DNA from: a bacterium
GTDB taxonomy: Bacteria; UBP14; UBA6098; JAFGQG01
Reading direction: 5' to 3'
DNA length: 46,243 bases
Assembly (NCBI GenBank): GCA_016935765.1
Contig: JAFGQG010000185.1
Span: 1-46,243 of the forward strand
Part shown: positions 1 to 26,189 of the stretch, one piece after another
Layout: each line of letters opens with the position of its first letter
Numbering within the stretch: the first letter of the stretch is position 1
The notes under the pieces: generated by a model
The model's database searches: none
Told to the model about the DNA's origin: nothing
What the model saw: the letters and a program-made list of their open reading frames with translations, nothing else
Translations under genes and position numbers: made by a program

Positions 1-1227
1 ATATCCGTAGCAGGTGAGTATAGGTAAACAACATCAGGTGGTGTACCGATGGAAGATAATGGGCAAGCTTCTTCATAATCATCGCCATAACAGCATGTAT
101 TTCCGGAATCGTTTAGAGGAATGCTAGGAACATAAATAGGATATTCACAGTTCTCACCGGTCATGGAAACGCTGAGAAGGTAATCCCCGCAATCGGCTGG
201 ACCAAATCCCTCGATAATAACCCAGTAAGTATCAGCAGTAAGATATTCAATAATAAGAGATGGACCGAATAATAATCCGCAGCCGTCGTCATTAGTAGCG
301 ATGTCATCTCCGCAGCAGTATGTGCCGAGAGCCATCCAGGAATCATAATTGGTTAAGGAATCACCTATGGTATCGCATAGTGAGAAATACCATTCGCCAT
401 CGCAGGGGATGTACATTTTCCATATATGGTCTTCGGAACTCCTGAGATCGCAGTCATTGAGAGCACTGCATGTAGAATAGAACCATACACCGGGTGCGTC
501 CTCAATGAAGTCAGGAGTACAAGATGTAATGCACTCAGTGATCTGTATGTTGTAATCTCCACAGGTACTATAACCATCTATTACGATATAGTAATCATGC
601 CCGGCAGTGAAATTTAAACCGTAAAGGGCAGATTGTAAACCACAATCATCGTCGTTACAGGCGAATAGGTTGTTGCAGGAATCCTCATAAACATAGAGTT
701 TTGTATCGAAATCGGTATAATCATCGCAGAGTGAGATATCCACGCAGATATCCGTAGCAGGTGAGTATAGGTAAACAACATCAGGTGGGGTACCGTAAGA
801 AGCTAAGGGACAAGCTTCTTCATAATCATCGCTATAACAGCATGTGCTCCCGGAATCATTTAAAGGTATGCCGGGAACATAAATAGGATATTCACAGTTC
901 TCACCGGTCATGAAAACGTTGAGAAGGTAGTCCCCGCAATCGATTGCGCTATATCCCTCTATAGTAACCCAGTAAGTATCAGCAGTAAGTGTTGCAGTAA
1001 TCAGGGATGGACCGCTAAGAACTCCACAGCCATCGTCATCAGTATCGATGTCATCTCCGCAGCAATAGGTACCGAGAGCCATCCAGGAATCATAATCGGT
1101 TAAAGAATCACCAATGGTATCGCAGAGAGAGAAATGCCATTCGCCATCGCAGGGTATATAGATCTTCCATATATGGTCTTCGGAGCTTCTAAGATTGCAG
1201 TCATTGAGGTCTCCACACGTGGTATCA
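1..1227 (-). repeat. In-frame tandem duplication inside the giant gene, 747-bp period
   Basis: Bases 1-480 align without gaps to bases 748-1227, starting with the shared ATATCCGTAGCAGGTGAGTA. Most positions are identical; I estimate well above 80% by eye. The 747-bp offset is exactly 249 codons, so one A-D module pair was duplicated in frame. The other modules are much more diverged at DNA level, so this is the youngest duplication visible. The unit may continue beyond the left edge. Confidence 0.85.
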
Positions 1228-4200
1228 AACCAGATCCCGGGGGCATCAACGATGAAATCAGGTACGCAATCAGGTGCTATATACAGGTCTATCGAGAGGT
1301 CGAAATCGGGAATGCAATCGGGGGAAGGCCATGTGTCTATCATTATGTAATAAGTTCCTGCTGCCAAATGGAGCGCGCTGAACCCATGTGGCGAAGCAAT
1401 AACACTCGTACTGGTCTCGATGCAGTCCGTTCCAGGAGGACATTCGTCGTCAATTAATATGCCGGTATAAGTTGTTGTATTTGGATCTAATGTTATATCA
1501 ACATCAACGTCGGAAGCAACAACGAGTTCGTATATAATATCTTCGCCGCCGTCGTAGTATTCAAGGCAGGTTGCGTCATAATCGTCCGTTCGGCAGCAAG
1601 TGGTCTGTGCAGCGTCCAGGTATGGCAGATCAGCAGGTATGGATATACTTATGGGTGTTGTGCAATCATCTCCAGTATTAGGCAGTTTATATATATCAAG
1701 CTCATAGTCGCCGCAAGCACCACTATATCCGTCAACAGTGACATAGTAAGTTCCAGCAGTTATACCGACGGATAGTTCAGATTGGAAATCACAATAATCG
1801 TCGTTGAATCCCACGTCTGTTAAACAGCAATCTGTACCCACTCCAAGTTTGGTATCATAAGAAGAACCACAGAGGGAGAAAACCCATTCTCCATCACATG
1901 GAATGCTCACTTCATATATGAAATCTTCAGAATCATCGGCATCGATATCACAGTCGTCCACTTCACCACAGGTGTTGCCAGTCCATGTCCCTGGCGCGTC
2001 TATAACTGAATCAGGTATGCAATCAGGTGGAAAATCAATAGTGAGATCAAATGATGGGATGCAATTTGGTGAAGGCCAGGTATCGATCATGATGTAGTAT
2101 GTGCCTGCAGTGAGAGATAAACCACTTATTTGACGAGGCGCAGTAGTCGAGTTCTTTACAGAGGCGATGCAGATGTCGTCGGGTGGGCAGACATCATCCA
2201 CACAAATTCCGCTCCAGGTTGTACCAAGAGGATCGAATTCAATATCAATAACAATGTCTGATGTGACATTCAGCTGGTATATAATATCTTCCCCGCCATC
2301 ATAACCATCAAGGCAGGTGGCGTCATAATCGTTGATCTTGCCGCATGTCGTTTGACTTAAATCGTTGTAAGGGAGATCACCGGGGATTTCTACCACGATA
2401 GGATCGGAGCAATCGTTTCCTCCAGGGTTTGAACAACTTAGAGTTGCTACATAATTACTCGAGCAGGATAATCCCGCAAATAAGGCTGGGCCTACCCAGT
2501 ACCAGTATACCCCTGAATCCAGTTCCATTTCGATGATAGCAGTGTCACATGGAAAAGCAGTATCTGATTCTAGAATAAATGGACTAACACAACCTGAATC
2601 ACCATGAATAATGAAGGCAATTACTTCAAAATCAGCTACGACTTCCCATTTTACGTTAGTTGGTTCGTGTAATGTGTCAACGAACCAGTCGGTATCTCTG
2701 TAGCTTGACCCGCCAGACAGATAGTTACCTGATTTTCCACAGATTATGTCTCCGCAATCGACACTCTGAAAGACTGGAGGAGTTGAATTGCAACCGCCAT
2801 TATAGTCATCGACATAGTCTGGCCCGCACATTGGTTCAGCCTCATCAATTCCGGATACGGGGCAAAATACAGAGCAAGGGATTTCTGTGACTTCAAGCAC
2901 GTAATCTCCACAACTGGAGTAACCTTCAATTGTAACGAAGTAATCTCCCGCGTAAACGTATTCGATCAATTCTGACTGCAATCCCGTACAGCCATCGTCA
3001 TCGATCCCGATCTCTGTGCCGCAGCAGGAGGTGCCCACAGCCATCCAGGTATCGTATGAGGAGGCGCAAAGTGAAAAATCCCATGTTCCTGCGTAAGGTA
3101 TAGTAACTTTGTAGATGATGTCTTCAGTCGTTTTGAGGCTGCAGTCATCGAAAGCGCCACATGTAGTCCCGGTCCATAAGCCGGGCGCTGTCACTACAAA
3201 GTCCGGCATACAAACGGCTTCGCAGTTTAGAGTAGCAACGTAATGACTCGAGCAGGGAATATTCAGGAAGCCGTTTACACCAACCCAGAACCAGTACGTG
3301 CCGGCAGGAATATCTCCTTCAATTATAGCAGTATCACATGGAGATGCAAATGCCGAATTAAATATTTCAAAAGAATCACAACCATCATGTACAATAATGA
3401 GATAAGTTGCGAGAGGGAATTCAGTAGCGACTTTCCAGATAATGTGTATGGAGTCTATTGTTGTGAATTCGTACCAATCAGTATCCTTGGTAGAGTCGGT
3501 GGACCAAGATGTGCCGCAAATAGTATCATCGCAGTTTATTGGTGTGAAGGCAGGGACTAGTAAATTACAGCCGTCATTTGTTGAATCGCCGCATACTTCC
3601 GGTTCGAGAAGGGCTCCCGGTGGGCATTCTACAGTACATGGAGGCATAGGGTAAACTGCAAGAGCATAGTCTCCACATTCATCAGTATCATATCCCTCAA
3701 CATCAACATAATAAGTGCCAGGGTCTAAACCATAGACTAAGAGTTGGGAATTGAGACCGCAAAAATCATCGTTTTCACCTAATTCCGAACCGCAGCATGT
3801 AGATCCCACATGTAGGTATGTATCGAATGAAGGATCGGATTCACAAAGGGAGAAATACCAATGCCCGTAATATGGAATTTCCACGGCGTAAATGTGGTCT
3901 TCGGCTACTCTCAGGCTGCAGTCATCTTCCTCACCACATGTATTGTCATAAAGGGTATCAGGCGCATAGAGGATAAAGTCAGCCCGGCATGGTTCCTCGC
4001 AATTAAGAATAGCAACGTAGTGGGATGTACATGGAACTCCGTAGAAAACTGAAGGACCTACCCAGAACCAGTAAATCCCCGAATCGAGTGTAGCATGAAG
4101 AAAGAGATTCTCACACGGATCAGCTACCGCGAAGTCGATTGTAATCGTGGATTCACAACTATCGATACTCTGTAATATATATGATGCCAGGGGGAATTCA

Positions 4201-6464
4201 GCCATAACCTGCCAGTGTACGAGTGTGGATTCAGTGAGTGCAAGCTGGTACCAGTCTGTATCTCTTCTTCCGGATAAAGCCCAGGCAGTTCCACATATAG
4301 TATCCTCACAATTGATCGTAGTGTAGACCGGCGGTGTGGAATTACAACCTTCGTTGGATGCATCACCGCACGGTTCCGGTTCGAGTATCGCGCCGACAGG
4401 ACATGATACTGTGCAGGCGGGTAGTTCGATTATAACGAGTTCATAATCGCCACAATCGATTATGCCTACACCCTCAACAGTTGCATAGTAAGTCCCTGCT
4501 TCAAGGTCGAAAAAGTCAAGCTGCGATTGCAGACCGCAATAATCGTCATCCCTGCCTAAATCATTACTGCAGCATCTTGTCCCAACTGCAAGCCAGGTGT
4601 CGAAGGACGAACCGCAAAGAGAAAATCGCCAGTTTCCTGTTGTTGGAATGTCCACTTCGAATGTCACATCACTACCAGGTTGAAGGTAGCAGTCATCACT
4701 CTCGGTGCAGGTGTTGCCGTATAAAGTACATGGGGCAGCTACTGATGAATCCGGAACGCAATCTACTACACACTCGAGTGAAGCAACGTAATAACTGGTG
4801 CAAGGTAAAAATGCAGTGTTAGCAGGCGCTACAAAAAACCAATAAATACCCGGTGGTAATAAACCGGTATTAACCCTGGCAGTATCGCAGGGAGTTCTAA
4901 CATCATAAGGATTTACAAAACCTGAGATGGAGTCACAACTTCCAAAACCCGGAGGTGTCGATTCTATTAAACCGCAGAGAACATCAAATTCAGCTATAAC
5001 GGTCCATATAAAAGCTGTAGTATCGGTTGTAGTGACCTGGTACCAGTCAGTATCCCTGATGCTTCCGTCAGCCCAGGCTGTACCACATATAACATTTCCG
5101 CAATTTATTATTTGAAAAGCTGGCGGAGTGGAGTTGCATCCACCGTTTACATCGTCACCACAAGGTTCATTTTCGGGAAAAGCCCATACTGGGCAGTCCA
5201 CTTCACAAGAGTAAATATCTAATAATATATCACCACATGAGGCAGCGCCATTTCCTTCAATCGTAACATAATATGTTCCAGCAGTCAGGTAATGTCCCAG
5301 TTGTGATTGAAGACCGCAGTAATCATCATTGGATTCGAGTTCATTTCCACAGCAAGTCGTTCCCAAGAATAAATAGGTGTCAAAATTTGAACCACATAGC
5401 GAAAAGACCCACATGGCTGCATAAGGTATCGTTACTTCATATACTAAATCCTCAGAATCAGATAAAATACACATATTTCCCGCGCCACAAGTGCTATTCG
5501 ACCAGGATCCCGGAGCGATAACGGAAGCGTCAGGAGTACAAACCAAAGCTTCTTGAATGTCTATAGTGTAGTCACCGCAGGAAGTACTGTAACCGTCAAC
5601 TACAATATAGTAATCACTACCTGCGTAAATGTTTAAACCAAGGATTCTTGAAACGTAATCAGCGTATGACGGAGATGAACATGCATCCTCATTACAAGCA
5701 ATCGCTGGCAAACCGCAGTCGTTCTCGTAAACGAATAATTTTGTATCATAATTCGTGGTTCCGACACAGAGGGTAATATCTATGATCATATCCGTTGCAG
5801 GTGAATACACATATACGACGTCGGGAGCAGTAGCGCTATAGGGACATACTTCATCATAGTCATCAATATATCCACAGGTGTTTCCATCATCGACGTATGG
5901 GATCCCGGGAATAGCAGTTGCGGTTGCGCAATCTTCGCCCCCTACTTTGCTAGAACTTCCGGGTCTCCTGACGCGGGTTTCCCTATCAACTGAGATACCA
6001 GAATTCCAATGGTTTTCCGCTTTTCTTCGCAGAGCCTCAGGATCTGATGTACATTGATTCGGTCGGTAACTTCCGATTGTTGAATTGAATCCAGATGGCT
6101 GGTTAGCGGAGACCGTGAGAAGAGCAGGATTGTTGCAAACTGGTTTTGCTTTGGAAGACGCCTTTTTATCAAAAGCCCTGGTATCTTCAATATCACTGGA
6201 TATCTCACCCATTTTCAGGGTGGTAGTTCTTTGTTCAATTTCGTCAGGCTTGTTTCTCTTTGAGGATAATAAACCGCTACCTTTCTCCAGGGACTCTGTT
6301 TCGTGAGTATCCTTACCGGACATCTTTGATGAAAGGAGAAAAGCGCTTAGCTTAGGGTTACCTTCTCCCCAAATTTTCGTAACATTAAATTGAGGGATTG
6401 TAAAGAATAATAGCGCGATAGCTATTATACTACAACCAACAAAAACCTTGAAATAATTGGACAT
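1..6464 (-). CDS. Giant exported Cys-rich multi-domain protein (PPC-like modules), 3' end outside window
   Basis: Reading the minus strand from the ATG at 6464 gives an open frame to base 1, at least 2154 residues, with no stop and no C-terminus in the window. A strong ribosome site (AAGGAGGG, 6475-6468) precedes the ATG. Residues about 5-24 form a hydrophobic export or anchor segment, followed by about 150 residues of charged linker. The rest is a mosaic of four Cys-rich modules in the order D-A-B-A-B-A-B-A-B-C-A-C-A-D-A-D. Module A (about 110-120 residues) contains FSLC, VGTxCCG, NDDxCGLQS and AGTYYVTVEGY..CGDY. B contains GCNSTPP, ICGTAW, RDTDWY and YWFWVG. C contains YDGGEDIIY and AGTYYIMIDTWPSP. 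D contains YSPATD and YYIVVDGYS. The TYYVTVdGY..GDY pattern resembles bacterial pre-peptidase C-terminal (PPC) domains. The abundant paired cysteines suggest disulfides outside the cytoplasm. Adhesion or surface-layer function is inference only. Confidence 0.85.
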   Translation of the reverse strand, partial: MSNYFKVFVGCSIIAIALLFFTIPQFNVTKIWGEGNPKLSAFLLSSKMSGKDTHETESLEKGSGLLSSKRNKPDEIEQRTTTLKMGEISSDIEDTRAFDKKASSKAKPVCNNPALLTVSANQPSGFNSTIGSYRPNQCTSDPEALRRKAENHWNSGISVDRETRVRRPGSSSKVGGEDCATATAIPGIPYVDDGNTCGYIDDYDEVCPYSATAPDVVYVYSPATDMIIDITLCVGTTNYDTKLFVYENDCGLPAIACNEDACSSPSYADYVSRILGLNIYAGSDYYIVVDGYSTSCGDYTIDIQEALVCTPDASVIAPGSWSNSTCGAGNMCILSDSEDLVYEVTIPYAAMWVFSLCGSNFDTYLFLGTTCCGNELESNDDYCGLQSQLGHYLTAGTYYVTIEGNGAASCGDILLDIYSCEVDCPVWAFPENEPCGDDVNGGCNSTPPAFQIINCGNVICGTAWADGSIRDTDWYQVTTTDTTAFIWTVIAEFDVLCGLIESTPPGFGSCDSISGFVNPYDVRTPCDTARVNTGLLPPGIYWFFVAPANTAFLPCTSYYVASLECVVDCVPDSSVAAPCTLYGNTCTESDDCYLQPGSDVTFEVDIPTTGNWRFSLCGSSFDTWLAVGTRCCSNDLGRDDDYCGLQSQLDFFDLEAGTYYATVEGVGIIDCGDYELVIIELPACTVSCPVGAILEPEPCGDASNEGCNSTPPVYTTINCEDTICGTAWALSGRRDTDWYQLALTESTLVHWQVMAEFPLASYILQSIDSCESTITIDFAVADPCENLFLHATLDSGIYWFWVGPSVFYGVPCTSHYVAILNCEEPCRADFILYAPDTLYDNTCGEEDDCSLRVAEDHIYAVEIPYYGHWYFSLCESDPSFDTYLHVGSTCCGSELGENDDFCGLNSQLLVYGLDPGTYYVDVEGYDTDECGDYALAVYPMPPCTVECPPGALLEPEVCGDSTNDGCNLLVPAFTPINCDDTICGTSWSTDSTKDTDWYEFTTIDSIHIIWKVATEFPLATYLIIVHDGCDSFEIFNSAFASPCDTAIIEGDIPAGTYWFWVGVNGFLNIPCSSHYVATLNCEAVCMPDFVVTAPGLWTGTTCGAFDDCSLKTTEDIIYKVTIPYAGTWDFSLCASSYDTWMAVGTSCCGTEIGIDDDGCTGLQSELIEYVYAGDYFVTIEGYSSCGDYVLEVTEIPCSVFCPVSGIDEAEPMCGPDYVDDYNGGCNSTPPVFQSVDCGDIICGKSGNYLSGGSSYRDTDWFVDTLHEPTNVKWEVVADFEVIAFIIHGDSGCVSPFILESDTAFPCDTAIIEMELDSGVYWYWVGPALFAGLSCSSNYVATLSCSNPGGNDCSDPIVVEIPGDLPYNDLSQTTCGKINDYDATCLDGYDGGEDIIYQLNVTSDIVIDIEFDPLGTTWSGICVDDVCPPDDICIASVKNSTTAPRQISGLSLTAGTYYIMIDTWPSPNCIPSFDLTIDFPPDCIPDSVIDAPGTWTGNTCGEVDDCDIDADDSEDFIYEVSIPCDGEWVFSLCGSSYDTKLGVGTDCCLTDVGFNDDYCDFQSELSVGITAGTYYVTVDGYSGACGDYELDIYKLPNTGDDCTTPISISIPADLPYLDAAQTTCCRTDDYDATCLEYYDGGEDIIYELVVASDVDVDITLDPNTTTYTGILIDDECPPGTDCIETSTSVIASPHGFSALHLAAGTYYIMIDTWPSPDCIPDFDLSIDLYIAPDCVPDFIVDAPGIWFDTTCGDLNDCNLRSSEDHIWKIYIPCDGEWHFSLCDTIGDSLTDYDSWMALGTYCCGDDIDTDDDGCGVLSGPSLITATLTADTYWVTIEGYSAIDCGDYLLNVFMTGENCEYPIYVPGIPLNDSGSTCCYSDDYEEACPLASYGTPPDVVYLYSPATDICVDISLCDDYTDFDTKLYVYEDSCNNLFACNDDDCGLQSALYGLNFTAGHDYYIVIDGYSTCGDYNIQITECITSCTPDFIEDAPGVWFYSTCSALNDCDLRSSEDHIWKMYIPCDGEWYFSLCDTIGDSLTNYDSWMALGTYCCGDDIATNDDGCGLLFGPSLIIEYLTADTYWVIIEGFGPADCGDYLLSVSMTGENCEYPIYVPSIPLNDSGNTCCYGDDYEEACPLSSIGTPPDVVYLYSPATD

Positions 6465-6530
6465 TGTCCCTCCTTGGATTTTGAAAATTAATATTTATTG
6501 ATTTTTTTCTCTCTCTTAACAAACAACATT

Positions 6531-6686: not shown

Positions 6687-7628
6687 TTACTTCATTTGGG
6701 GCAGACAAATTACTTTAACCCTTATAGTATGTAAATCCAGGGCATGTTCTCCTATGGTCGAAGTGGGCATTACCAGCTTGAACCAAAGGGCTATTTCTTG
6801 TTCAGGCGCAACATTTTGCCCTTTTGAATCGAGTCCCAGTGAGAAAACCGGTCCCTCGGCAATCTTTGGAGCTAAAGTCAACACATCCTCATCATAGAAT
6901 TCATTAAAATCCCTCTCTTCAAGCTCATTATGATATTTATCAGTGAAGACAGCTGAAAGGAGATATTTGTTCTCATCTATACTATCAATGTTCGAAGCTG
7001 CAACCCAACCATCCACTACCCATTTATCCTCGCTTGAGATGGATAAGGCGTATTTCTGGAAACCATTGCCGGTATTTGTAATAATAATCCTTTGGTCAAA
7101 ATCCGTAATATTGATAGAAGCGGGTTTAAGGTCCTTTCCGGCAAACCAGGAGTTAGGTTGGATTTTCATGGATAGATCCTGTTTCAGTACAGGTCCATAC
7201 CCAAGGGGTGTCGAGTATTGATTTTTACCATCGCTTGCGGTAAAATAATACGATAGATACGACAATTTAGAAGGGTGATAACTTAGCGTAATTGCGAATG
7301 AATAGATTACACCTTTCCTATTGTTTCTACCTTTTGCTCGCTTCATGGAAAACTGCTCATTCTCGCTGAAGAAACCGTCACGACTAGTGTCTAAATTGAC
7401 TATTACCCAGGCAGGCGCGGTGTTGTTTGAACTCTTATATTTTACCTTAAAAATGAATTCGGTAGGCTGCGAACCGGTTTCAGGTTCAAGACCATCATTT
7501 TCATAACCGGTACTTCCAACCCATTCCAGTAATACAACATCATCCGGATATGAAATACCGTATGACGCTGTTATTAGAGAAAAGGCAGTTATAAATAATA
7601 GAAGGGATTTGTAAATTACCGAATTCAT
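6687..7628 (-). CDS. Secreted protein of unknown function, third gene of a two-component operon
   Basis: This 313-residue protein starts with a signal peptide (about residues 1-25, KSLLLFITAFSLITASYG) and has no other membrane segment. I do not recognise a family. The mature part looks like extracellular beta-sandwich material, with aromatic and polar alternation, and contains WVNP-free stretches such as YHPSKLSYLSYYFTASDGK. The ATG is preceded by AGAGG and lies one base after the stop of the NtrC-type regulator, so it is translated as part of the same operon. That position suggests an exported partner or output of the kinase/regulator pair, which is inference. Confidence 0.75.
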   Translation of the reverse strand: MNSVIYKSLLLFITAFSLITASYGISYPDDVVLLEWVGSTGYENDGLEPETGSQPTEFIFKVKYKSSNNTAPAWVIVNLDTSRDGFFSENEQFSMKRAKGRNNRKGVIYSFAITLSYHPSKLSYLSYYFTASDGKNQYSTPLGYGPVLKQDLSMKIQPNSWFAGKDLKPASINITDFDQRIIITNTGNGFQKYALSISSEDKWVVDGWVAASNIDSIDENKYLLSAVFTDKYHNELEERDFNEFYDEDVLTLAPKIAEGPVFSLGLDSKGQNVAPEQEIALWFKLVMPTSTIGEHALDLHTIRVKVICLPQMK

Positions 7629-7629
7629 G

Positions 7630-8943
7630 TCAAACCTCTAAACCGTATTTTTGTATCTTCGAATATATCATTCTCCTTGTGATCCCCAGGATTTTAGCAG
7701 CTTTGGTTTTATTCCCATTACTTTCTTCAAGAGCTTTTATTAAAAGCTCTTTTTCAACCTGGTCAATATTTAATGAAGCGGGTTCAAAAGATGTTTTTTC
7801 ATTTATTTTGGGCAATAGAATATACTCAGGAGTTATCTGCTCATCTCCACTCAGGATTTTTGCTCTTTCAATGATATTTTCCAACTCCCTGACATTTCCC
7901 GGCCAGTTATAATCCTGAAGCATAATAAATACATCCTTCCCGATCTTATTTTTAATATTGTGCTTCCTGCAGTAGTTGTCAACCAAGACCGGAATGTCTT
8001 GTTTATGGTCCCGAAGAGGTGGCGTTTCTATTGGGAAAACAGCAAAACGGTAGTATAAATCTTCCCTGAATGAACCTTCATTTACCATTTTTTCCAGATT
8101 TCTGTTAGTTGCCGCGACTATTCTTACATCCGTTTCAATAGGGGAGATGCCCCCCACTCTCACGATTGTCTTCTCCTGTACTGCCCTCAGCAATTTCACT
8201 TGTATGGATAATGGAATGTCGCCTATTTCATCAAGGAACAGTGTTCCCTTATCCGCTATCTCGAACCTTCCCTTCTTACTTCTGTCTGCGCCCGTAAAAG
8301 CCCCCTTTTCATAGCCAAATAATTCAGCTTCGAACAGCGTTTCAGTTATCGCAGCGCAATGCACCGGAACAAACATGTTATCCTTCCGGGGACTCTTTTG
8401 GTGAACAGCGCGCGCAACAAGCTCTTTGCCAGTGCCACTCTCCCCAAGGATCAATACTGTCGCTTCAGTTGGGGCAACCTTGTCTATCAATTCCCTGGTT
8501 TTCCTTATCGTAGGTGAATCACCTACTAAATGTCCCTGTCTCTCGTTCTCTGCTTCCTTGTGAAATCGAATATCCGTTTTTAAGTTTAATTTCTCGTTTA
8601 TTTTTGCTATCAGTAGTTTTATTTCATCCACGGAAAAGGGTTTGACAACATACTCGAAAGCCCCATATTTCATGGCTTCAACCGCATTTTCTATAGTACC
8701 GAAAGCGGTCATTATAATGAATTCAGTTTCCGGCTGCTGTTCCTTGACCCTTTTTAAAAGATTTAAACCATCTATACCTGGCATCTTAAGGTCAGATATA
8801 ATGAGGTCGAAATCCTCCTTATCAAGCAACCCAAGCGCTTGTTCACCAGATGATGCGGTTTTTACCTGGTGATTGTTCCTTGTCAATGCCACACTTAGAA
8901 GCCGTGTAATTTTATTTTCGTCATCTACAACTAAAATTTTCAT
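7630..8943 (-). CDS. NtrC-family sigma-54-dependent response regulator
   Basis: This 437-residue transcription activator has the three NtrC domains in order. The receiver domain (1-120) has phospho-acceptor Asp51 in IISDLKMPGIDG. The AAA+ domain (about 140-370) has Walker A GESGTGK (167-173), the sigma-54 contact loop GAFTGA (214-219) and Walker B LFLDEIGD. The C-terminal Fis-type helix-turn-helix (about 395-437) contains NKTKAAKILGITRRMIY. Length and layout are normal for the family. The start ATG overlaps the stop of the upstream kinase gene as ATGA, a translational-coupling arrangement, so that kinase is almost certainly its partner. It would activate sigma-54 promoters when phosphorylated. 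I found no clear -24/-12 site in this window, so the targets are unknown. Confidence 0.95.
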   Translation of the reverse strand: MKILVVDDENKITRLLSVALTRNNHQVKTASSGEQALGLLDKEDFDLIISDLKMPGIDGLNLLKRVKEQQPETEFIIMTAFGTIENAVEAMKYGAFEYVVKPFSVDEIKLLIAKINEKLNLKTDIRFHKEAENERQGHLVGDSPTIRKTRELIDKVAPTEATVLILGESGTGKELVARAVHQKSPRKDNMFVPVHCAAITETLFEAELFGYEKGAFTGADRSKKGRFEIADKGTLFLDEIGDIPLSIQVKLLRAVQEKTIVRVGGISPIETDVRIVAATNRNLEKMVNEGSFREDLYYRFAVFPIETPPLRDHKQDIPVLVDNYCRKHNIKNKIGKDVFIMLQDYNWPGNVRELENIIERAKILSGDEQITPEYILLPKINEKTSFEPASLNIDQVEKELLIKALEESNGNKTKAAKILGITRRMIYSKIQKYGLEV

Positions 8944-10283
8944 CCTACATCACCTTCAGGGAATCCAAGTATTACATCCGTTCCCTTACCTTTTCTACTT
9001 TCAATTTTAATAAATCCTGAGTGATTGTCCACAATTTTTTTTGTAATGTATAAACCCAGACCAGAACCCCCCGGTTTGCTGGTGTAGGATATCTCGAATA
9101 TTCTCTTAACATCCTTTTTAGAAATGCCTGTTCCGTTATCCGAAATCCTTAATACTGCATATTGGACTGAATTATGTTTTTCTCTCGATGTATTAATATT
9201 AATAATCCCGCCTCCACTTATAGCATCTCTTGCATTAAGCAATATGTTTAAGATAGCTTGTTTGAATGAATTTGTATCAACATGAACCGGCTGCAATTCT
9301 CCCAGCTCCAAGTTTATTGCTATGTTCTGGTTTTTGAATTCAGGCTCAATTCTGCTTACTGCATCCTCAAGGATTTTGTTGAGATTCATAAGTTCGCGCG
9401 GCTCACTTTGAGGGCTGGAAAAGGACATGTAACCTTTGATTATGCCATCAAGCCTTTGGATTTCCTCAAGAATGAAACCCGTTAATTCCCTTCCTCCGCT
9501 GTCAAGATTTTCCTCTAATTCCTCTGCGGAAAGTTTCATGATAGCCAGGGGGTTCCTTATCTCATGAGCCATCATAGAAGCCATTTCACCCATTGTGGAT
9601 AATGTGGCAGTTTGCAAAAGCGCTCTTTCGGTTCTTCTCAGAACAGCAAAAGTAATGATCATTAGGATGAGAAGCAATACGACCGAGGCTAAACTTACGA
9701 CCAAAAACGCTACCATTCCTTTCCTTGCAGCCCTTAAAATATTGAAGTATTCGTCACCAGCTTCTATCCCCAGTATTCCATTAACGTTTTGCCATTCGTC
9801 GAGTATGGGCGCGTATGCAGTTTTCGTGAACCTGTTTTTGAATTCATAAATTTTCGTCGTGGTTGAAATTCCACTCAGAGCGATCGCAAAAGCTGAATAA
9901 TCTAAAGCTAGATACGGATTTGGTTCCCCTGGAGTAAGAGACCAATCGTTGGAATATAAGGTTGCTCCCGTGGTGTCCAATATGAATATATTGCCAAGTT
10001 CCTGCTGTTCGGATATCCTAACAAGAAATCGTTCTGACGAAGTCCTTGTATAGAATTCTGGTTCGATCCTTAACTCGTTAATCCACTCCGGATCGATATT
10101 TTCAGCAATTAAAGCGGAAATGAGATTAAGGTTCTCCCCAAGCTCGTTATCAAGGAATATTTTAAGTTGTCTATATCCCCAAAATAATGAAAAATTAAAT
10201 AATACCAGCAGAATAATTAACTGTATGGAAGCCCAAATCAGAAAAGGTTTTAAGTAAGATTTCTTAAGAGGCTTCCTGCTCAT
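8940..10283 (-). CDS. Membrane sensor histidine kinase paired with the NtrC-type regulator
   Basis: This is a 447-residue inner-membrane kinase. Two transmembrane helices (about 13-36 and 189-214) flank an extracytoplasmic sensor of about 150 residues that contains a PAS/Cache-like stretch (NIFILDTTGATLYSND). The phospho-acceptor is His240 in the H-box MMAHEIRNP. The ATPase domain has an N-box (NILLNARDAIS), G1 (DNGTG) and G2 (GGSGLGLYITKK). The layout resembles AtoS/ZraS kinases that drive NtrC-type regulators. It shares a 4-base stop/start overlap with the regulator. No strong ribosome site precedes the ATG at 10283, and the signal it senses cannot be read from the sequence. Confidence 0.93.
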   Translation of the reverse strand: MSRKPLKKSYLKPFLIWASIQLIILLVLFNFSLFWGYRQLKIFLDNELGENLNLISALIAENIDPEWINELRIEPEFYTRTSSERFLVRISEQQELGNIFILDTTGATLYSNDWSLTPGEPNPYLALDYSAFAIALSGISTTTKIYEFKNRFTKTAYAPILDEWQNVNGILGIEAGDEYFNILRAARKGMVAFLVVSLASVVLLLILMIITFAVLRRTERALLQTATLSTMGEMASMMAHEIRNPLAIMKLSAEELEENLDSGGRELTGFILEEIQRLDGIIKGYMSFSSPQSEPRELMNLNKILEDAVSRIEPEFKNQNIAINLELGELQPVHVDTNSFKQAILNILLNARDAISGGGIININTSREKHNSVQYAVLRISDNGTGISKKDVKRIFEISYTSKPGGSGLGLYITKKIVDNHSGFIKIESRKGKGTDVILGFPEGDVG

Positions 10284-17634: not shown

Positions 17635-18897
17635 TTACTTTTGCGATAATCCCAACAGGTACGATCGAAGATTTACTTTCTCTTTAAGAATTCCAAGTTT
17701 CTTTCTGATCTGGTGACGGTGTTTATGCACGGTTTTTACGGATATACCTAACCCATCCGCTATCTCTTCGGACCTGTAACCGTTCTTTATCAAGTCGCAT
17801 ATCTCGATCTCTCTCTGAGATAGTTTGGAGTACTCGGATAGTGTGGTTAATGGGGAGGAGGCAAGTTCCTTGATACCTTCTTCAAGCAAGCCCACCAGGT
17901 TCATCCGAGTGTCCTTATCACCGCTCTTGACCTTGGAGATGATCGGTACAAGCACCTGCTCGAAATCCTTCGCGACCTCCTGGCGGATATTTGTTTCGCT
18001 ATCCTTTAAATGCTCCAAAACCCTCTCAAGGGTAGCTTTCTCTCTCTCCAGATTTGCTACTGCGGTTTCTAATTCTTTTGTTCTTTCCTCTACCATCTGC
18101 TCCAATTGCTCATTCAAACTCTGTAAATATTCTTCAGCTTGCTTTCTTTTTGTAATATCCCTGCATATCCCCTCAACAGCTATGATGTTGTCGTCATCAT
18201 CTTTCATCCCGTAATTTGATTGAAGTATCCATCTTTCAGATCCATCAGGTCCGACGATCTTGTACTCAAAAACCGGGTCGATCTCTCCCTTTTTCATATT
18301 CGTAAAGCTCTTTTTTAGGGGCTTTTTAAACTCAGTGTGTATAATATCAAAGAAGAATTCCGGATTTTTGATGAATTCAATATTATCATAGCCAAAAACG
18401 TGTTTAGCGCCCGGGCTGAAATACTCATAATTCCCGTCCGGTAACGACAGCCTGAATACCGCCTCATCTATTCCTTCGACCAGGTTCCGGAATTTCTTTT
18501 CGTTCTCCCTGAGTTTCCTCTCCATCTTGTGCTTATATAAAGCCATCTCAATTACGCTGTGAACCTCCTTATCCTCGAATGGTTTAAGTATATAGCCAAA
18601 AGGTTCGCTCAATTTCGCTTTTTGAAGAGTCGCGTTATCGGCATAAGCAGTTAGATAGATTACCGGAATATCAAGCTCCTTCCTGATCTGTTTGGCAGCT
18701 TGTATACCGTTCATTTTCCCCTGTAATACTATATCCATGAGAACTATGTCGGGTCTATTATTCATGGCAGACTTTATACTGTCTTCTCCACTCGATACTA
18801 CATCGACAACTTTGTAATCTAAATTAAGTAAAGTGGATTCGATATCCTTTGCGATTATACCTTCATCCTCTACTATCAACACTTTCGTATCAGGCAT
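17635..18897 (-). CDS. REC-PAS-LuxR response regulator (second paralogous pair)
   Basis: I start at the ATG at 18897 (420 residues, MPDTKVLIVEDEG). The ATG five codons upstream is itself part of the ribosome site GGGAGGAAACAAA. A CheY-like receiver (about 1-120) has Asp55 in LMDIVL. A PAS domain (about 135-255) contains YFSPGAKHVFGYD and a C-terminal CRDITKRKQAEE. A coiled coil (about 255-310) and a helical linker (QEVAKDFEQVLVPII) follow. The C-terminal LuxR-type HTH contains LSQREIEICDLIKNG and SVKTVHKHRHQIRKKLGI. It thus combines phosphorylation input, a second sensory domain and DNA binding. It overlaps the 3' end of the kinase gene by 8 bases, so that kinase should be its partner. A close paralogue lies at 20718-21953. 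Confidence 0.93.
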   Translation of the reverse strand: MPDTKVLIVEDEGIIAKDIESTLLNLDYKVVDVVSSGEDSIKSAMNNRPDIVLMDIVLQGKMNGIQAAKQIRKELDIPVIYLTAYADNATLQKAKLSEPFGYILKPFEDKEVHSVIEMALYKHKMERKLRENEKKFRNLVEGIDEAVFRLSLPDGNYEYFSPGAKHVFGYDNIEFIKNPEFFFDIIHTEFKKPLKKSFTNMKKGEIDPVFEYKIVGPDGSERWILQSNYGMKDDDDNIIAVEGICRDITKRKQAEEYLQSLNEQLEQMVEERTKELETAVANLEREKATLERVLEHLKDSETNIRQEVAKDFEQVLVPIISKVKSGDKDTRMNLVGLLEEGIKELASSPLTTLSEYSKLSQREIEICDLIKNGYRSEEIADGLGISVKTVHKHRHQIRKKLGILKEKVNLRSYLLGLSQK

Positions 18898-20590
18898 TTT
18901 GTTTCCTCCCATCAGTATATTGGATTCTCTTGAATTTTATCAAAAAGGCAGTGCCCTTACACTCGTTTTTTTTATTTGTATCTTTTATAGCCGATTTAAA
19001 CCCGCCCATTTTAAATGAATTACAGGAACCGATCTCGATGCTTCCCTTGAGTTGCTTGACCAGGGTATTTACGATCTGGAGCCCTAAACTAGCAGTATTC
19101 TTAAAGTCAATATCTTTTGGGAACCCCATACCGTTGTCCTGGATCAACATCGCATAATCCTCTTTGCCTTTACTCGTGAGTTCAATTGAGATTACACCAT
19201 CCATGTTATTCGGAAAAGCATGTTTAAGAGCGTTTGATACAAGCTCATTGATGATCAGTCCGCAGGGGATAGCAGTATCGATACCCAGGAAGACATTCTT
19301 TGCTTCGACTTGAAACCTTATCTTAGATGAATTTATAACGAAGGAGGCGAATAACTGGGAAGCCAGGCTTTTTATGTAGTTCTCAAAGTCGATAACTGCC
19401 AGGTCCTCCGACCGGTATAGTTTTTCATGGACAAGCGACATACTCTTGATCCTGTTCCTGGTTTCAGTGAACACTTCCAGTACAGACTCATTCTCAATAT
19501 ATCCGGCTTGCAGTTTCAGGAGGCTTGATATAACCTGCAGATTGTTCTTTGTGCGGTGGTGTATCTCTTTTAACAAGAGCTCCTTCTCTGTCAGAGCGTT
19601 CCGAATCTGCTCTTCCGCTTTTTTCCACTCGGTAATATCCCTGCAGACCATCAGGATTTCGATAGATTTTCCTTTATTATCCTTTAGTAATGTTGTTGAT
19701 ATAAAGGTGGGAAAGGAAGTTCCATCCTTTCTGAAATTTAAAAATTCGCCCTTCCATGAACCATTTTGCCTGGTCAAGTTAAGAACCTCGTCTAATTTTT
19801 GCTCATTCTCTTTATTATACAACTTGCTTATTTTCGAGTCTAACAGCTCTTCATTTTCAAAGCTGTGCATTTTCGAGAAAGCTTCATTGGCGTAGGAGAT
19901 CACCAAATCGAATCTGAATATAGCTACCCCATCGATAGATTGGTCCATGGCTGAGCTTAAGCGCTTGATCTCTGCTTCAGCCTCCATTTTCTCAGTGAGA
20001 TCCCTTATTATGCCGACAGTTCCCAGAAACTGCTTGATATCCGAGTCAACTGGCGCATCATAATGACCGGAGGAAGTAACCTCTCCATGTAAAGTGAGTA
20101 AACCGGTTTTCTTTTCACTTTTCTCCTGATCCTTTTCCCACCCTTTGGGGATCAATCTTATCTCCAAACCCCTGGTAGATCTTCTTCCTGTTCTACGTTC
20201 GTCAAATAGTTTTGGGGCTTTCTTGTCTCCGGTGATCTTGCCTTTAAATTGAGGCAGGACAGAAGAACGACTCACAAATGCAAGGTCGTCAGGATGGATG
20301 ATAATACTAAAGTGCTTGCCAATTAAGTCCGCTGGTTTATAATCCAGCAACTCGATAGAGTTGTTGACGAATACGAAATAACCATCAGGGTCTATTTCAT
20401 ATATGATCACCGGCAGATCGTCAAGCAGATTCAAGCATCGCTTTTCGTTTATGAGTATTGCGGGTTTGAATTTTCCAGAACCGTTGGATGGCATATCCTT
20501 TGATGATTTTTTTTCACTTTTTCGTGTACGTATTTTATCTTTTGAAGCTTTAGTGGAAGATTTATCTTTATGTATATTTTTATTATCCAT
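18890..20590 (-). CDS. Soluble PAS-PAS-HisKA_2 sensor kinase
   Basis: This 566-residue protein has no signal peptide or transmembrane helix, so it is cytoplasmic. A Lys/Ser-rich N-terminus (1-45) is followed by a PAS domain (about 50-205) with a long charged insertion (APKLFDERRTG). A second PAS (about 207-330) ends in CRDITEWKKAEE. The HisKA_2 dimerisation domain has H-box KEIHHRTKNNLQVISSLLK (His near 343), and the ATPase domain has N-box IINELVSNALKHAFP and G1 QDNGMGFPKD. HisKA_2 kinases often phosphorylate stand-alone or unusual receivers. The downstream regulator gene overlaps it by 8 bases, which indicates pairing. Confidence 0.92.
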   Translation of the reverse strand: MDNKNIHKDKSSTKASKDKIRTRKSEKKSSKDMPSNGSGKFKPAILINEKRCLNLLDDLPVIIYEIDPDGYFVFVNNSIELLDYKPADLIGKHFSIIIHPDDLAFVSRSSVLPQFKGKITGDKKAPKLFDERRTGRRSTRGLEIRLIPKGWEKDQEKSEKKTGLLTLHGEVTSSGHYDAPVDSDIKQFLGTVGIIRDLTEKMEAEAEIKRLSSAMDQSIDGVAIFRFDLVISYANEAFSKMHSFENEELLDSKISKLYNKENEQKLDEVLNLTRQNGSWKGEFLNFRKDGTSFPTFISTTLLKDNKGKSIEILMVCRDITEWKKAEEQIRNALTEKELLLKEIHHRTKNNLQVISSLLKLQAGYIENESVLEVFTETRNRIKSMSLVHEKLYRSEDLAVIDFENYIKSLASQLFASFVINSSKIRFQVEAKNVFLGIDTAIPCGLIINELVSNALKHAFPNNMDGVISIELTSKGKEDYAMLIQDNGMGFPKDIDFKNTASLGLQIVNTLVKQLKGSIEIGSCNSFKMGGFKSAIKDTNKKNECKGTAFLIKFKRIQYTDGRKQNA

Positions 20591-20717
20591 TGTAATTACT
20601 CCAGTTTTAAGTAAAAAAACTTACATAATAAATAAACATACGGAGTAATATATCATTGAAAAATATATAGACAAGTTAAAAAGATGCCTGAACCCCCAAA
20701 AATTTTTTTCTTCTAAA

Positions 20718-21953
20718 CTAAGTCAGGCTTAACAGGTAAGAGCGGAGATTGATTTTATCGTTTGTGATGCCCAGTTTTTTGCGCATTTGTTGTCTGTGTT
20801 TCTGCACAGTAGTTGGGGCTATGTTCAATTCTGCGGAGATCTCTTTGGAAGTTAAGCCGTTTTTGACCATGTTGCAGATCTCAATTTCACGTGGGGATAG
20901 TTTTGAATAAACTGATAAAACATTTAAAGGTGAGGTCGCCAATTCTCTTAGCCCACTCTCTATCAATTCTACGAGTATCAGGTTATTTGGATCGACCGCT
21001 CGTTTTAACTTCGCCAGAATAGGAATTAAGACCTGGTCAATATCACTGGTGATTTCGCGCCTTATATTTAGTTTTTCCTCGCTGATGTAGGCAAGGACTT
21101 CCTTAAGGGCAGTATTCTTCTTCTCCAATTCAACAGTTCGTTCCTTCACTTTCCTTTCCAACTCATCATGGGCTTTCCTCAAGGATTCTTCAGCTTTTTT
21201 ACGCTCGGTGATTCCCCTGCAAATGCCCTCTATAGCAATCAGGTTGCCTTCATCATCGAATAAACCTTTATTGGATTGCATTATCCAACGCTCGTTGTTT
21301 TTTGAATCGAGTATCTTGTATTCATATATTGGATCGACGATACCCTTTGCTAATTCAGCCCATTTCTCTCTTATATAATCCTCGGAAGACGGGTGTATTA
21401 TCTTCTTTATGAATAGCGGGTCCTTTACGAATTTGCTCGCGTCGTAACCGAATACCAGCTTGGCAGCGGGAGAAAAATATTCATAGTCGCCCTCAGGAAG
21501 AGTCATACGGAAAATCGCTTCTCGTACTCCTTCAATCAAACTCCTGTATCTTTCCTCGTTCTCCCTTAGTTTTTTCTCCATCTGATACTTATAAAGCGCC
21601 ATCTCTATAACAGTTTCAAGTTCCCTGTCGCCGAATGGTTTAAGAATATAACCATAAGGCTCAGTTACTTTTGCTTTCTCAAGCGTTTTCTTATCAGCAT
21701 AAGCAGTCAAATAAACTACAGGTATTTTGAAATTGTTGTGTATTTCTTCAGCAGTATCGATGCCGTTCATTTTACCCGCAAGGACAATATCCATTAATAC
21801 CAGGTCAGGCATGGAATCGTTGACTTTTTCAAGCGCTTCTTCACCTGATGAGGCTGTACCAACAACATTGTAACCAATACCTTTCAAAATATTCTTGATA
21901 TCCTTTGCTACGATATTCTCATCTTCGACAATCAAAATTTTTGCTTCACCCAT
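20718..21953 (-). CDS. REC-PAS-LuxR response regulator (first paralogous pair)
   Basis: This 411-residue protein has the same layout as the regulator at 17635-18897: receiver with Asp55 (LMDIVLAG), PAS domain (YFSPAAKLVFGYD, CRGITERKKAEE), coiled coil, helical linker (REITSDIDQVLIPIL) and LuxR HTH (LSPREIEICNMVKNG, APTTVQKHRQQMRKKLGI). The two proteins are similar along their full length, so this is a duplicated pair. A clear ribosome site (GGAGG) precedes the ATG. The gene lies 42 bases downstream of the kinase at 21996-23906, its likely partner. Confidence 0.93.
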   Translation of the reverse strand: MGEAKILIVEDENIVAKDIKNILKGIGYNVVGTASSGEEALEKVNDSMPDLVLMDIVLAGKMNGIDTAEEIHNNFKIPVVYLTAYADKKTLEKAKVTEPYGYILKPFGDRELETVIEMALYKYQMEKKLRENEERYRSLIEGVREAIFRMTLPEGDYEYFSPAAKLVFGYDASKFVKDPLFIKKIIHPSSEDYIREKWAELAKGIVDPIYEYKILDSKNNERWIMQSNKGLFDDEGNLIAIEGICRGITERKKAEESLRKAHDELERKVKERTVELEKKNTALKEVLAYISEEKLNIRREITSDIDQVLIPILAKLKRAVDPNNLILVELIESGLRELATSPLNVLSVYSKLSPREIEICNMVKNGLTSKEISAELNIAPTTVQKHRQQMRKKLGITNDKINLRSYLLSLT

Positions 21954-21995
21954 TTTATATCCTCCTAATACTTTCCATTTTTATGAGAAATATTA

Positions 21996-23906
21996 TTAAA
22001 ATTCGATTTTAAAAGTTGTCCCAATAAGTCTTTTTCCTTTATGGTTTATTCTTTTCAGTTGCTTGTAATCGCGAATCATTTCTATCTTTCCGCCAAGTTG
22101 TTCCACTAAAGTGATTACGACTTGCAAACCCATGCTATCGCAATTTCTAAAATCAATGTCATCTGGAAGCCCGATCCCGTTATCGCTTACAATCAACATG
22201 AACGGCTTGTTTTGTGATAAACGATCATGTTTTTGATAAGAAACTAAATTATCACGTTTTACATGAAGCTTTACCAGTATCTGACCATTCCCGTTCATCG
22301 AGGGCGTGAGCTTCTTAGGGAAAGCGTGTTTCAATGAATTCGAAAGCAGTTCATTAATGATCAAACCAACCGGAATTGCGGTATCAAGGTTAAGAAAAAG
22401 ATTATCAACATCGATATTCATCTTGATGCTGTTGGATAGAACCCTGTATGAGTTGTATAAATTGGATGTTAGGCTAGTAATATACTCTGAGAAGTCTATG
22501 TTCGCCAGGTCTCCAGACCTATATAATTTCTCATGGATCAAAGCCATAGCCTGGATTCTATTTTGAGTTTCTTTAAAAACCTCGCTAACTGTTATGTTCT
22601 TTATCTGACCAGATTGAATCCTTAACAAACTCGATATCACCTGCAGATTGTTTTTAACCCTATGATGAATTTCTTTCAGGAGAACCTCTTTCTCTTTCAA
22701 GGAGGCTCTTATTTTTTCTTGTGTTTCTTTCTGTTCAGTGATATCCCTGAAAACCCATAAAATTCCTGCCGGATTTTGTGATTCATCCTTCAGCAGCGTT
22801 ATTGATGAATAGGTTGGGAAAAGCGAAACACCGTATTTAAAATGCCTCAGTTCGCCTTCCCAGGAACCCTCAGAGCAAATTTCCTTGAGCATCGCTTTGA
22901 AATCCTTGTGTTCAATACCTGAAAGGAATTCCTTTACACTAGTTCCAATAACCTGTTCGGTATCACAATTATGCATTATTGCAAAAGCCTCGTTTGCATA
23001 AGTAATCCCCGCGCTGAGGTCTGAGATGGCAATTCCATCTATCGACTGGGATATCGCTGATATCAAAATGGTAATCTCCTTCTCGGCAATTTTTCTCTCT
23101 GTAATATCTTTAATTATTCCGATAGTCCCCAGGAACTTCTTTTTATCATTTACGAGAGGAGCGCTGTATAAACCAGATGATGTAACCTCACCATAAAAAC
23201 TTATATTCCGGCTACTCTTTTTATTTCTATCCTTTTTATGAATAAGCTTGACCTCGAGATATTTCGTTCTCCTTTCACCCGTTCTTCTCTCGTCGAAAAG
23301 CTTTGGCGCGTTCTTTTCGCCGACGCTCTTTCCCCTGTATTTTGGTAAAACCGTTGCCCTCGTTATTTGTTTTGTGGTCGTCGCTTTGATAATAGTAGTG
23401 AAGTGTTTACCTAACAACTCCTCCGGAGTGTAACCCAGGCAGCATACATTCTGATTCAAATAGGTGAATAATCCCTTAGGATCGATTTGATATACGATTT
23501 CTGGCAGGAATTCCACCATGTTCTTGTAATGTTGTTCGCTATTTTGCAATTGATCCAGCATGGAGTTATGCCTAGTGATATTCGAAAATATTAGACCGAT
23601 ACCGTTCTTTATTGCAAATGACTTAATGAAATAAGCCTTCTCACCTCCTGACTTTGAGGGAATTTTCTCCTCACCGCAGGAACGGTTCTTTGCCGATGAA
23701 TTGTCTATATACTTGTGCAAAATTCCAGATTTTCTAAAAAGCAATGAAAGCTTGGTGATCTTCTCATCTATTAGTTTCTTCTTATTTGCGCTGAATATGT
23801 TAATTGCTGTATTGTTAATATAGCGAATCCTGTTTTGTCCATCCAGAGCGATAAAGCCATCGGAGGAAGCGTTGATAAGAGCGTCGAATATCTGATTTCT
23901 ATCCAT
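21996..23906 (-). CDS. Soluble multi-PAS HisKA_2 sensor kinase
   Basis: I use the ATG at 23906 (636 residues); a TTG at 23927 would add seven residues. There are no membrane segments. Three PAS domains are visible: residues about 4-110 (a PAS core, FIALDGQNRIRYIN), about 130-290 with the same charged insertion as the paralogue (APKLFDERRTGERRT), and about 292-400 (YANEAFAIMHN, FRDITEQKETQE). The HisKA_2 H-box KEIHHRVKNNLQVISSLLR has its His near 412. The ATPase domain carries IINELLSNSLKHAFP and SDNGIGLPDD. It precedes its presumed response regulator by 42 bases and follows the REC-PAS kinase by about 54. Confidence 0.92.
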   Translation of the reverse strand: MDRNQIFDALINASSDGFIALDGQNRIRYINNTAINIFSANKKKLIDEKITKLSLLFRKSGILHKYIDNSSAKNRSCGEEKIPSKSGGEKAYFIKSFAIKNGIGLIFSNITRHNSMLDQLQNSEQHYKNMVEFLPEIVYQIDPKGLFTYLNQNVCCLGYTPEELLGKHFTTIIKATTTKQITRATVLPKYRGKSVGEKNAPKLFDERRTGERRTKYLEVKLIHKKDRNKKSSRNISFYGEVTSSGLYSAPLVNDKKKFLGTIGIIKDITERKIAEKEITILISAISQSIDGIAISDLSAGITYANEAFAIMHNCDTEQVIGTSVKEFLSGIEHKDFKAMLKEICSEGSWEGELRHFKYGVSLFPTYSSITLLKDESQNPAGILWVFRDITEQKETQEKIRASLKEKEVLLKEIHHRVKNNLQVISSLLRIQSGQIKNITVSEVFKETQNRIQAMALIHEKLYRSGDLANIDFSEYITSLTSNLYNSYRVLSNSIKMNIDVDNLFLNLDTAIPVGLIINELLSNSLKHAFPKKLTPSMNGNGQILVKLHVKRDNLVSYQKHDRLSQNKPFMLIVSDNGIGLPDDIDFRNCDSMGLQVVITLVEQLGGKIEMIRDYKQLKRINHKGKRLIGTTFKIEF

Positions 23907-23960
23907 CAATTTCTTACTGCAATCCAATAATTAAGAGGTTAAAAACACTACCCGGCAGAA

Positions 23961-26189
23961 TCAGTACTTGCACTGTTGCTGAATAGCCTCTTTAAACCAG
24001 ATTTTAAAAGTGGTTCCGGGCTTGTTATTTTGCTTTTCACCAGAGGTTCTATAAAATGAAGGTATATATTCAATTTCCCCTTTTAACTGCTCTACCATCG
24101 ATAAAACGATTTGTATCCCAAGTGTGTCCGTATTGTCTAAATCAAAGCTGTCAGGCATCCCTATACCGTTATCACTCACTATCAAGGATAACATGGATTC
24201 ATTGTAATTTGGATCGGGGTCAGTGGTAGATTCTATCCTTTTAAACTCGATATATATTTCTCCTGTCATTTCATTTGGGAACGCATGTTTCAGAATGTTG
24301 GATAGTAATTCATTGATAATAAGTGAGCAACAGTTAGCTGCATCAACCGCCATTAAAATTTCATCGATATAAATAGATAATTTAATACGTTCACTCGAGA
24401 TCTTGTATGATGCAAATATTTGAGAAACAAGACTGCGGATATATTTAGGAAATTCTATCTTGGTCAGGTCTTCAGATTGATACAACTTTTCGTAAATCAG
24501 ACTCATTGAGTCGATTCGGTTGCGGGTTTCTCTCAGTATCTCCAAAACACAGGGGTCTAAAACCTGGGTAGATTGAAGTCTGAAGAGGCTTGAGATTACT
24601 TGTAAATTATTCTTTACCCGGTGATGGATTTCCCTGAGAAGGGCCTCTTTTTCCTTCAATGATGATAATATTTGCTTCTCGGCTTGCTTTACTTCTGTTA
24701 TATCATTTACGATGTGAGTGATACCAATAACCTCATTATCCTCAGTTATTGGTCCGATATGGGTTTTATAGTAAGATTTTGTTCCTTTGGGACCTTTACC
24801 AGTGATTTCGTAGAATTTTCCTTCTCCTGTTTTAAAGGCTTCTATAATAGTCTCTTTAACCATATCGTGAAATTGGGGATCAATGAAGTCAAAAACTGTT
24901 TTTCCTATAGTTTCTTCTTGAGTAAATCCTTCAATTGTATGGTTTATGAATTTGATCTTGCCTTTTTCATCAGTTATTAAAATGGTATTTGGCGCGTTCT
25001 TTGCAAGAGAAGACCACTTCTCCTCCGAAATTTTTAAGGCTTCCAGAGTTTTTTTATGTTCAGTTATATCTTTGATTATATTAACGAAGGTTATGGGTTC
25101 ACCTTTTGTGTCTTGTACAACGCTGGTGGAAAGTTCTACAGGAAACTCGATACCGCCTCTCTTTAGAAAACTGTATTCAATATTCCTGAGTGTTTGTTGT
25201 TTTAATACTTTTTTCATATTAATAGCCGCTCTGTGCCTATCGACAGGTGCTATCAATTCAAGTATGTTTCTGCCTATTAGTTCTTCTTTAACAGTAAAGC
25301 CATGCATTTCAACCATAGCGAGATTGCAGTCCAGCAGGTTCCCACTGCTATCGGTGACTGAAATAGAATTGGGTGATGATTCCAGGATATTTCGCAGAGT
25401 TTCCCGGCTGTCTCTTAATTCTGCTTCAATATACTTTTGTTCGGTTATATCCCTGCAGATAGCGAGCATTCCAGAAGGCTTCCCTCCCGCGTCCATAACA
25501 AGCGAAGTGGACATCTGCGTAGGAAAGGTCGTTCCGTCCTTCCTGAAATGATCAAGTTCCCCCTTCCAGGAGCCCCTCGTTTTTATTGAATCTATTATTT
25601 CAGTATAATCTTTCCGTTGTTCGGGGGAATGAAGATTAGATATTTTGAAGTACTTCATCTCTTCCTGTGTGTAACCGTGAATTTCCGCAAATGCTTTATT
25701 AATATAAACTAAACCGTTATTTATATCTGAGAGAGCGATGCCATCTATAGAATTTTCTACCATGGCTTCTAACTGAGATGCATACTGAACAAGTTTCTTC
25801 TCAGAATCTTTACGTTCTATCGCATAAAAAATTGATTTTGCAAGCAAGTCCCCATCCATTTCCCACTTAACCAGGTAATCCTGTGCTCCTTCTTTAATAA
25901 CCTTCACAGCCAGTTCTTTATCATCCACGCCGGTGATAACAATAATTGGAACTCCCGGTATCTTGTTGCGCGCTGAAGAAAATGTATTGAAACCCTTGCT
26001 ATCGGGAAGCAGCAAATCAAGTAAAAGCATATCAATATCATCACTTGAAAATTTACCTAAACCCGTAGAAAGCTGATTGCTGCATTCTATATCAAACTGC
26101 GCCAGGTCTGATCCCGCGAGCATTTTCTGTATCAAACGAATATCTCCAGGATCATCCTCAATTAACAATACTTTTATTGGTTTACTCAT
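23961..26189 (-). CDS. REC-PAS-PAS-PAS-HisKA_2 kinase
   Basis: This 742-residue cytoplasmic kinase starts with a receiver (1-125, Asp58 in LLLDLLLPDS), unlike its two neighbours. It then carries three PAS domains (about 140-260, 265-385 and 390-505), each ending in a typical (C/K)DITE(Q/H/V)K segment. The HisKA_2 H-box REIHHRVKNNLQVISSLFR has its His near 520, and the ATPase domain contains IINELLSNILKHAFP and SDNGIGMPDS. The receiver at the N-terminus lets it take a phosphoryl signal from another kinase, so it could sit above or beside the two kinase/regulator pairs downstream. That hierarchy is inference. Confidence 0.92.
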   Translation of the reverse strand: MSKPIKVLLIEDDPGDIRLIQKMLAGSDLAQFDIECSNQLSTGLGKFSSDDIDMLLLDLLLPDSKGFNTFSSARNKIPGVPIIVITGVDDKELAVKVIKEGAQDYLVKWEMDGDLLAKSIFYAIERKDSEKKLVQYASQLEAMVENSIDGIALSDINNGLVYINKAFAEIHGYTQEEMKYFKISNLHSPEQRKDYTEIIDSIKTRGSWKGELDHFRKDGTTFPTQMSTSLVMDAGGKPSGMLAICRDITEQKYIEAELRDSRETLRNILESSPNSISVTDSSGNLLDCNLAMVEMHGFTVKEELIGRNILELIAPVDRHRAAINMKKVLKQQTLRNIEYSFLKRGGIEFPVELSTSVVQDTKGEPITFVNIIKDITEHKKTLEALKISEEKWSSLAKNAPNTILITDEKGKIKFINHTIEGFTQEETIGKTVFDFIDPQFHDMVKETIIEAFKTGEGKFYEITGKGPKGTKSYYKTHIGPITEDNEVIGITHIVNDITEVKQAEKQILSSLKEKEALLREIHHRVKNNLQVISSLFRLQSTQVLDPCVLEILRETRNRIDSMSLIYEKLYQSEDLTKIEFPKYIRSLVSQIFASYKISSERIKLSIYIDEILMAVDAANCCSLIINELLSNILKHAFPNEMTGEIYIEFKRIESTTDPDPNYNESMLSLIVSDNGIGMPDSFDLDNTDTLGIQIVLSMVEQLKGEIEYIPSFYRTSGEKQNNKPGTTFKIWFKEAIQQQCKY

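Follow-up and report, generated by a model that had tools for sequence, protein, structure and literature searches.

What kind of protein is specified by a cysteine-rich reading frame of more than two thousand codons that runs off the edge of a bacterial contig, and how might such a protein serve the cell? The frame lies in a window of 46,243 nucleotides, the whole stretch of DNA that was analyzed, which is the entire contig C64 (JAFGQG010000185.1) of a genome in 200 contigs from the GTDB lineage UBP14; UBA6098; JAFGQG01 (GCA_016935765.1).

Module organization of the mosaic gene

The mosaic frame (3-6464, minus strand) comprises 2154 open codons and runs off the first base of the contig; no frame break was seen, which confirms the minimum length given in the first-pass annotation. 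Splitting of the protein revealed at least 16 modules in the order D-A-B-A-B-A-B-A-B-C-A-C-A-D-A-D, all of which were recovered by HMM searches. This order, with module A at every second place and the B4-C1 step as the single exception, is exactly the one first proposed. The protein contains 141 cysteines in 2154 residues; about nine had been counted in each B module, where nine are invariant, and about seven in each A module, where eight are invariant or nearly so. The features are as follows.

6468-6475, minus strand: ribosome-binding-site-like AAGGAGGG just upstream of the mosaic ATG (direct reading)
5943-6464, minus strand: N-terminus with ATG, signal-peptide-like hydrophobic stretch, then a module-free linker of ~130 residues
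5544-5942, minus strand: module D1 (splitting and HMM)
5214-5543, minus strand: module A1 (passes the NCBIfam NF038127 cut-off, 36.4 vs 29 bits)
4779-5213, minus strand: module B1 (splitting and HMM)
4422-4778, minus strand: module A2 (AlphaFold model jointly with B2)
4008-4421, minus strand: module B2 (AlphaFold model jointly with A2)
3645-4007, minus strand: module A3 (splitting and HMM)
3231-3644, minus strand: module B3 (splitting and HMM)
2883-3230, minus strand: module A4 (splitting and HMM)
2442-2882, minus strand: module B4 (splitting and HMM)
2031-2441, minus strand: module C1 (AlphaFold model jointly with A5)
1689-2030, minus strand: module A5 (AlphaFold model jointly with C1)
1278-1688, minus strand: module C2 (splitting and HMM)
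912-1277, minus strand: module A6 (77% amino acid and 80% nucleotide identity to A7)
531-911, minus strand: module D2 (91% identity to the 54 residues that remain of D3)
165-530, minus strand: module A7 (identity as under A6)
3-164, minus strand: module D3 (54 residues, then the contig end, inside the D-A tandem repeat)

The contig starts within this D-A tandem repeat (747 bp spacing, 87% identity over 400 bp). With none of the genome's other contigs overlapping there, the available sequence stops short of the C-terminus of the mosaic protein. No catalytic domain was seen in the mosaic protein, nothing closely related to it over its full length turned up in plasmid records or in a pattern scan of genome contigs, and literature searches found no paper on such module arrays.

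Modules of one predicted fold

Profile comparison indicated homology between A and D (98.8%), C and D (97.3%) and A and C (89.8%), and gave no direct link between B and these three (8% for B and A). The AlphaFold models of A2-B2 and C1-A5 reached mean pLDDT values of 92 and 90, and the top PDB match of both was the tandem collagen-binding domain of ColG, 5iku (2.1e-10 and 3.9e-12). The whole-model TM-scores against this top match were low (0.30-0.37), probably owing to a domain orientation unlike that of the templates; the solved PPC domain 5sv5 matched one domain of the C-A model with a TMt of 0.74. Among distant relatives, counting matches at E up to 0.1, the PPC family PF04151 was matched by 4 of 23 relatives of B (best 4.4e-4) and 3 of 17 relatives of D and C (best 6.6e-8). 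The mosaic protein itself matched no Pfam family at E up to 1 and is thus below the PF04151 cut-off. In PDB profile searches, a joint A-B profile found the metalloprotease chain 2luw (E 0.01), which we take to be a PPC domain, and A alone or B alone gave nothing convincing.

Based on the homology of A, C and D and on the match of both models to ColG, all four module types are most likely variants of one PPC-like beta-sandwich, with D predicted to share the fold through its homology to A and C. That the modules are PPC-like is almost certain, as models, fold search and profile matches bear out the first reading. In two respects this reading had to be revised: what had been taken for three different partners of A is one fold in four variants, according to profiles, Pfam matches and models, and the protein is not without a named family, given that one stretch, in A1 only, exceeds the curated cut-off of NF038127.

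Module order in relatives

The mosaic gene is preceded by the following genes.

6687-7628, minus strand: 313-aa gene with a signal-peptide-like start, whose C-terminal half is a divergent copy of domain T, described below (profile search)
7630-8943, minus strand: sigma-54-type response regulator (gene order the same in a second genus)
8940-10283, minus strand: histidine kinase, whose gene shares 4 bases with that of the regulator

The T match of the 313-aa gene has an E of 2.3e-33, to a profile that includes that gene. Sigma-54 promoter motifs were not enriched in the window (17 found vs 16 expected), and none was found just upstream of the mosaic gene. Elsewhere in the window, several PAS-domain histidine kinases and response regulators are clustered (17635-26189), a UvrC-like gene carries a C-terminal NlpC/P60 domain, an unusual fusion (35643-38021), and a bacterial Ig domain is joined to a sulfatase-modifying-factor (FGE-like) domain (42749-44029).

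Within the same family, a second genus has a homologue of the 313-aa gene in the same place, and together with the response regulator gene it precedes a gene encoding D-x-C-A-B-C-A-x-D-B-A-C-B-A-A, where x denotes stretches without assigned module; because of the shared position, this gene is likely an orthologue of that in the window. At this locus (L052, minus frame 2-6445) a further cysteine-containing module type, matching no A-D model, was observed at residues 303-480 and 1132-1308. Relatives in the genome of the window are found on contigs C102, C90 and C82 and at the end of contig C50. C102, with the order A-B-B-B-A-A-D-B-A-D-A, is cut by the end of its contig, C90 is a complete paralogue of 918 aa with A-C-A-C-A-A followed by T, and C82 has three C modules. 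Divergent from the C102 gene lies an 809-aa gene (L025:5329-7758) that by appearance has von Willebrand-type and OmpA-type regions and is similar in size to PorP/SprF-family genes of the class.

The differing orders in the likely orthologue and the paralogues demonstrate that module order changes between close relatives. Runs of B-B-B and A-A occur among the likely orthologue and two paralogues, so the alternation first read as a design is not conserved, and in its strict form it is peculiar to the protein of the window. At 41 loci, whose sources include Zixibacteria, Eisenbacteria, Phycisphaerae, Calditrichaeota, KSB1 and Cloacimonadota, there are 73 B modules; 36 of these stand immediately behind A, C or D and nine behind another B, and the linkers inside (A/C/D)-B couplets are mostly 0-8 residues long. 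The widespread unit is therefore this couplet and not the alternation. The first-pass annotation had proposed a pairwise unit, and allowed that the modules might prove to be fragments of one fold with no repeating pair; a single predicted fold did emerge, which in part counts against the first reading, but the pair exists and recurs in several other phyla. We rejected the idea that one A-B couplet was recently copied fourfold, since A1-A4 and B1-B4 are about equally diverged. Module trees were mostly unresolved and showed no grouping by protein, except for A6/A7 and one pair in C90, which were well supported.

A C-terminal domain of secreted giants

C90 and the contig end C50 have in common a C-terminal domain of about 150-155 residues, here called T. 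As the C-terminus of the mosaic protein is missing from the contig, we infer from these paralogues that it probably ends in T as well. A T profile found 17 copies in the genome of the window and 14 in its nearest relative. A richer profile found T in each of the 17 class genomes and in none of 44 others, which suggested a class-specific domain until a wider search turned it up in 5 of ~181 outside genomes. In nearly every intact copy inspected, the domain sits at the very end of its protein. In the two nearest genomes, the clear copies inspected end at the stop codon and the divergent copies of the upstream gene at most seven residues from it; in 15 further class genomes, 39 of 40 copies end within four residues of the stop (a count that leaves out seven low-scoring stretches, all with E above 10), mostly with LP or MP as the final two residues, and ten copies outside the class end 1-6 residues before it. 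By a simple hydrophobicity rule, 23 of 25 T proteins have a signal-peptide-like start, the start of the other two being cut by a contig or locus end, and their N-termini are of the same kind as that of the mosaic protein. C90 ends in ...IEIELQARLFLP and carries no LPXTG motif, membrane span or basic tail. Searches of T against Pfam, NCBIfam and PDB gave no confident match (best in NCBIfam, choice-of-anchor T, E 0.013), the NCBIfam sorting models were not matched, and no similarity to a locally built type A profile was detected.

With regard to the export route, SprA was found in 14 of 17 class genomes, including the nearest relative, and was not found in the genome of the window (90% complete). 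PorP/SprF-like proteins occur in all 17, type A tail matches number from 61 to at least 150 per class genome, and the T genes of the genome studied are not on contigs with PorP/SprF-like genes. Proteins with homologous modules in other phyla finish in one of three ways, all consistent with secreted proteins: with a T9SS-type tail, with a dockerin-like end or with the tail W-x-x-I-K-x-L-Y-R. The tail W-G-x-I-K-x-[L/F]-Y-R-stop was observed on secreted D-B and B-B proteins (L086-L104 and their genomes; G084), and L089 and L104 each show about four or five adjacent D-B genes with a W-x-x-I-K-x-[L/F/I]-Y-R-type tail wherever the end is present. Eight genomes, Eisenbacteria among them, contain the former as a DNA pattern 5-39 times each, two contain it once and nine others never, with a reversed control at 0 in all genomes. 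The tail is possibly a lineage-specific sorting tail, and it was not found in NCBIfam with the two proteins tried.

We tentatively read T as a C-terminal domain not catalogued before, by which giant secreted proteins are directed to, or built into, the cell surface in this class alongside ordinary T9SS tails; on this reading the exact C-terminus, usually a hydrophobic residue and proline, may be the recognized signal. A doubtful alternative, which concerns the role of T and not the reading of the array, is that T is an assembly unit and no sorting domain, such that T-only secreted proteins polymerize and T-tailed giants are built in. Short T-only proteins of about 185-260 aa, with little beyond signal peptide and T, do exist inside and outside the class, which speaks for this alternative; however, T cargos are very diverse in kind and size, up to 3838 aa, and T sits on modules that elsewhere carry T9SS-type tails.

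Possible function of the array

The mosaic protein is very probably secreted, in line with the surface exposure first suggested. The explanation that we favor, with some reserve, is a giant secreted multivalent surface protein, an array of PPC-like modules that a C-terminal T would deliver or help to assemble. First, the protein would be exported by Sec via its signal peptide. Second, it would fold in the periplasm, where disulfides may form and the cysteines would stabilize the modules. Third, it would pass the outer membrane, and a C-terminal T such as its paralogues carry would fix it to the surface or mediate its assembly there. In that position, the array of at least 16 PPC-like modules might project numerous similar binding faces outward, and might bind extracellular polymers or neighboring cells. 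In a Grimontia collagenase, collagen is bound by the segment that contains PPC (PMC6168687), which makes a multivalent binding array the simplest reading, and we lean slightly towards binding rather than a purely structural role.

It is unlikely that the array is mainly structural, namely a stiff disulfide-locked stalk or sheath fiber with domain pairs as spacers and binding as a minor matter, close to the rod of the first-pass annotation. The high cysteine content, the very short linkers between modules and the lack of any detected catalytic domain would suit such a fiber, but the order and number of modules differ between likely orthologues, members range from ~350 to >2100 aa, cysteines thin out in distant members, and a PPC-containing segment of tested role, that of the collagenase, is a binder. 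Very improbable is an origin of the alternation in misassembled repeats, for although the contig end lies in a near-identical repeat, the modules other than A6/A7 and D2/D3 have identities of only 40-61% as protein and 50-62% as DNA, hence are too different for assembly collapse or duplication, and similar arrays occur in the complete paralogue and in other genomes.

Comparison with known systems

Many uncultured phyla encode enormous proteins without annotation. The one studied here can be taken apart into exchangeable units of a fold already known, and its comparison with relatives brings to light a domain at the C-terminus of many giant secreted proteins in a single class. Should T prove to be a signal for sorting or assembly, sequence alone would suffice to list the surface proteins of the lineage, and the known C-terminal export domains would gain a family.

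Like the ColG collagen-binding domains (5iku) and PPC (PF04151), the modules have a predicted beta-sandwich fold, stand in tandem in secreted proteins and show weak sequence matches in distant members; the mosaic array differs in its lack of an appended peptidase, its richness in cysteine, its at least 16 modules and the absence of a Pfam match of its own. NF038127 (DVUA0089 family) is approached by module A1, which scores above its cut-off, but that model has 150 positions and describes no multi-type array. In the T9SS, C-terminal domains of type A (~100 aa) and type B (150-235 aa) are secretion signals, and different families of such domains have been identified by sequence (PMC12618676). 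T proteins resemble T9SS cargo (TIGR04183, TIGR04131) in their signal peptide and in the extreme C-terminal position of their last domain. The class encodes SprA together with PorP/SprF-like proteins and is rich in type A tails, and elsewhere proteins with homologous modules finish in tails like those of type A; T has the right position and size for such a domain, but here matches neither type A nor type B.
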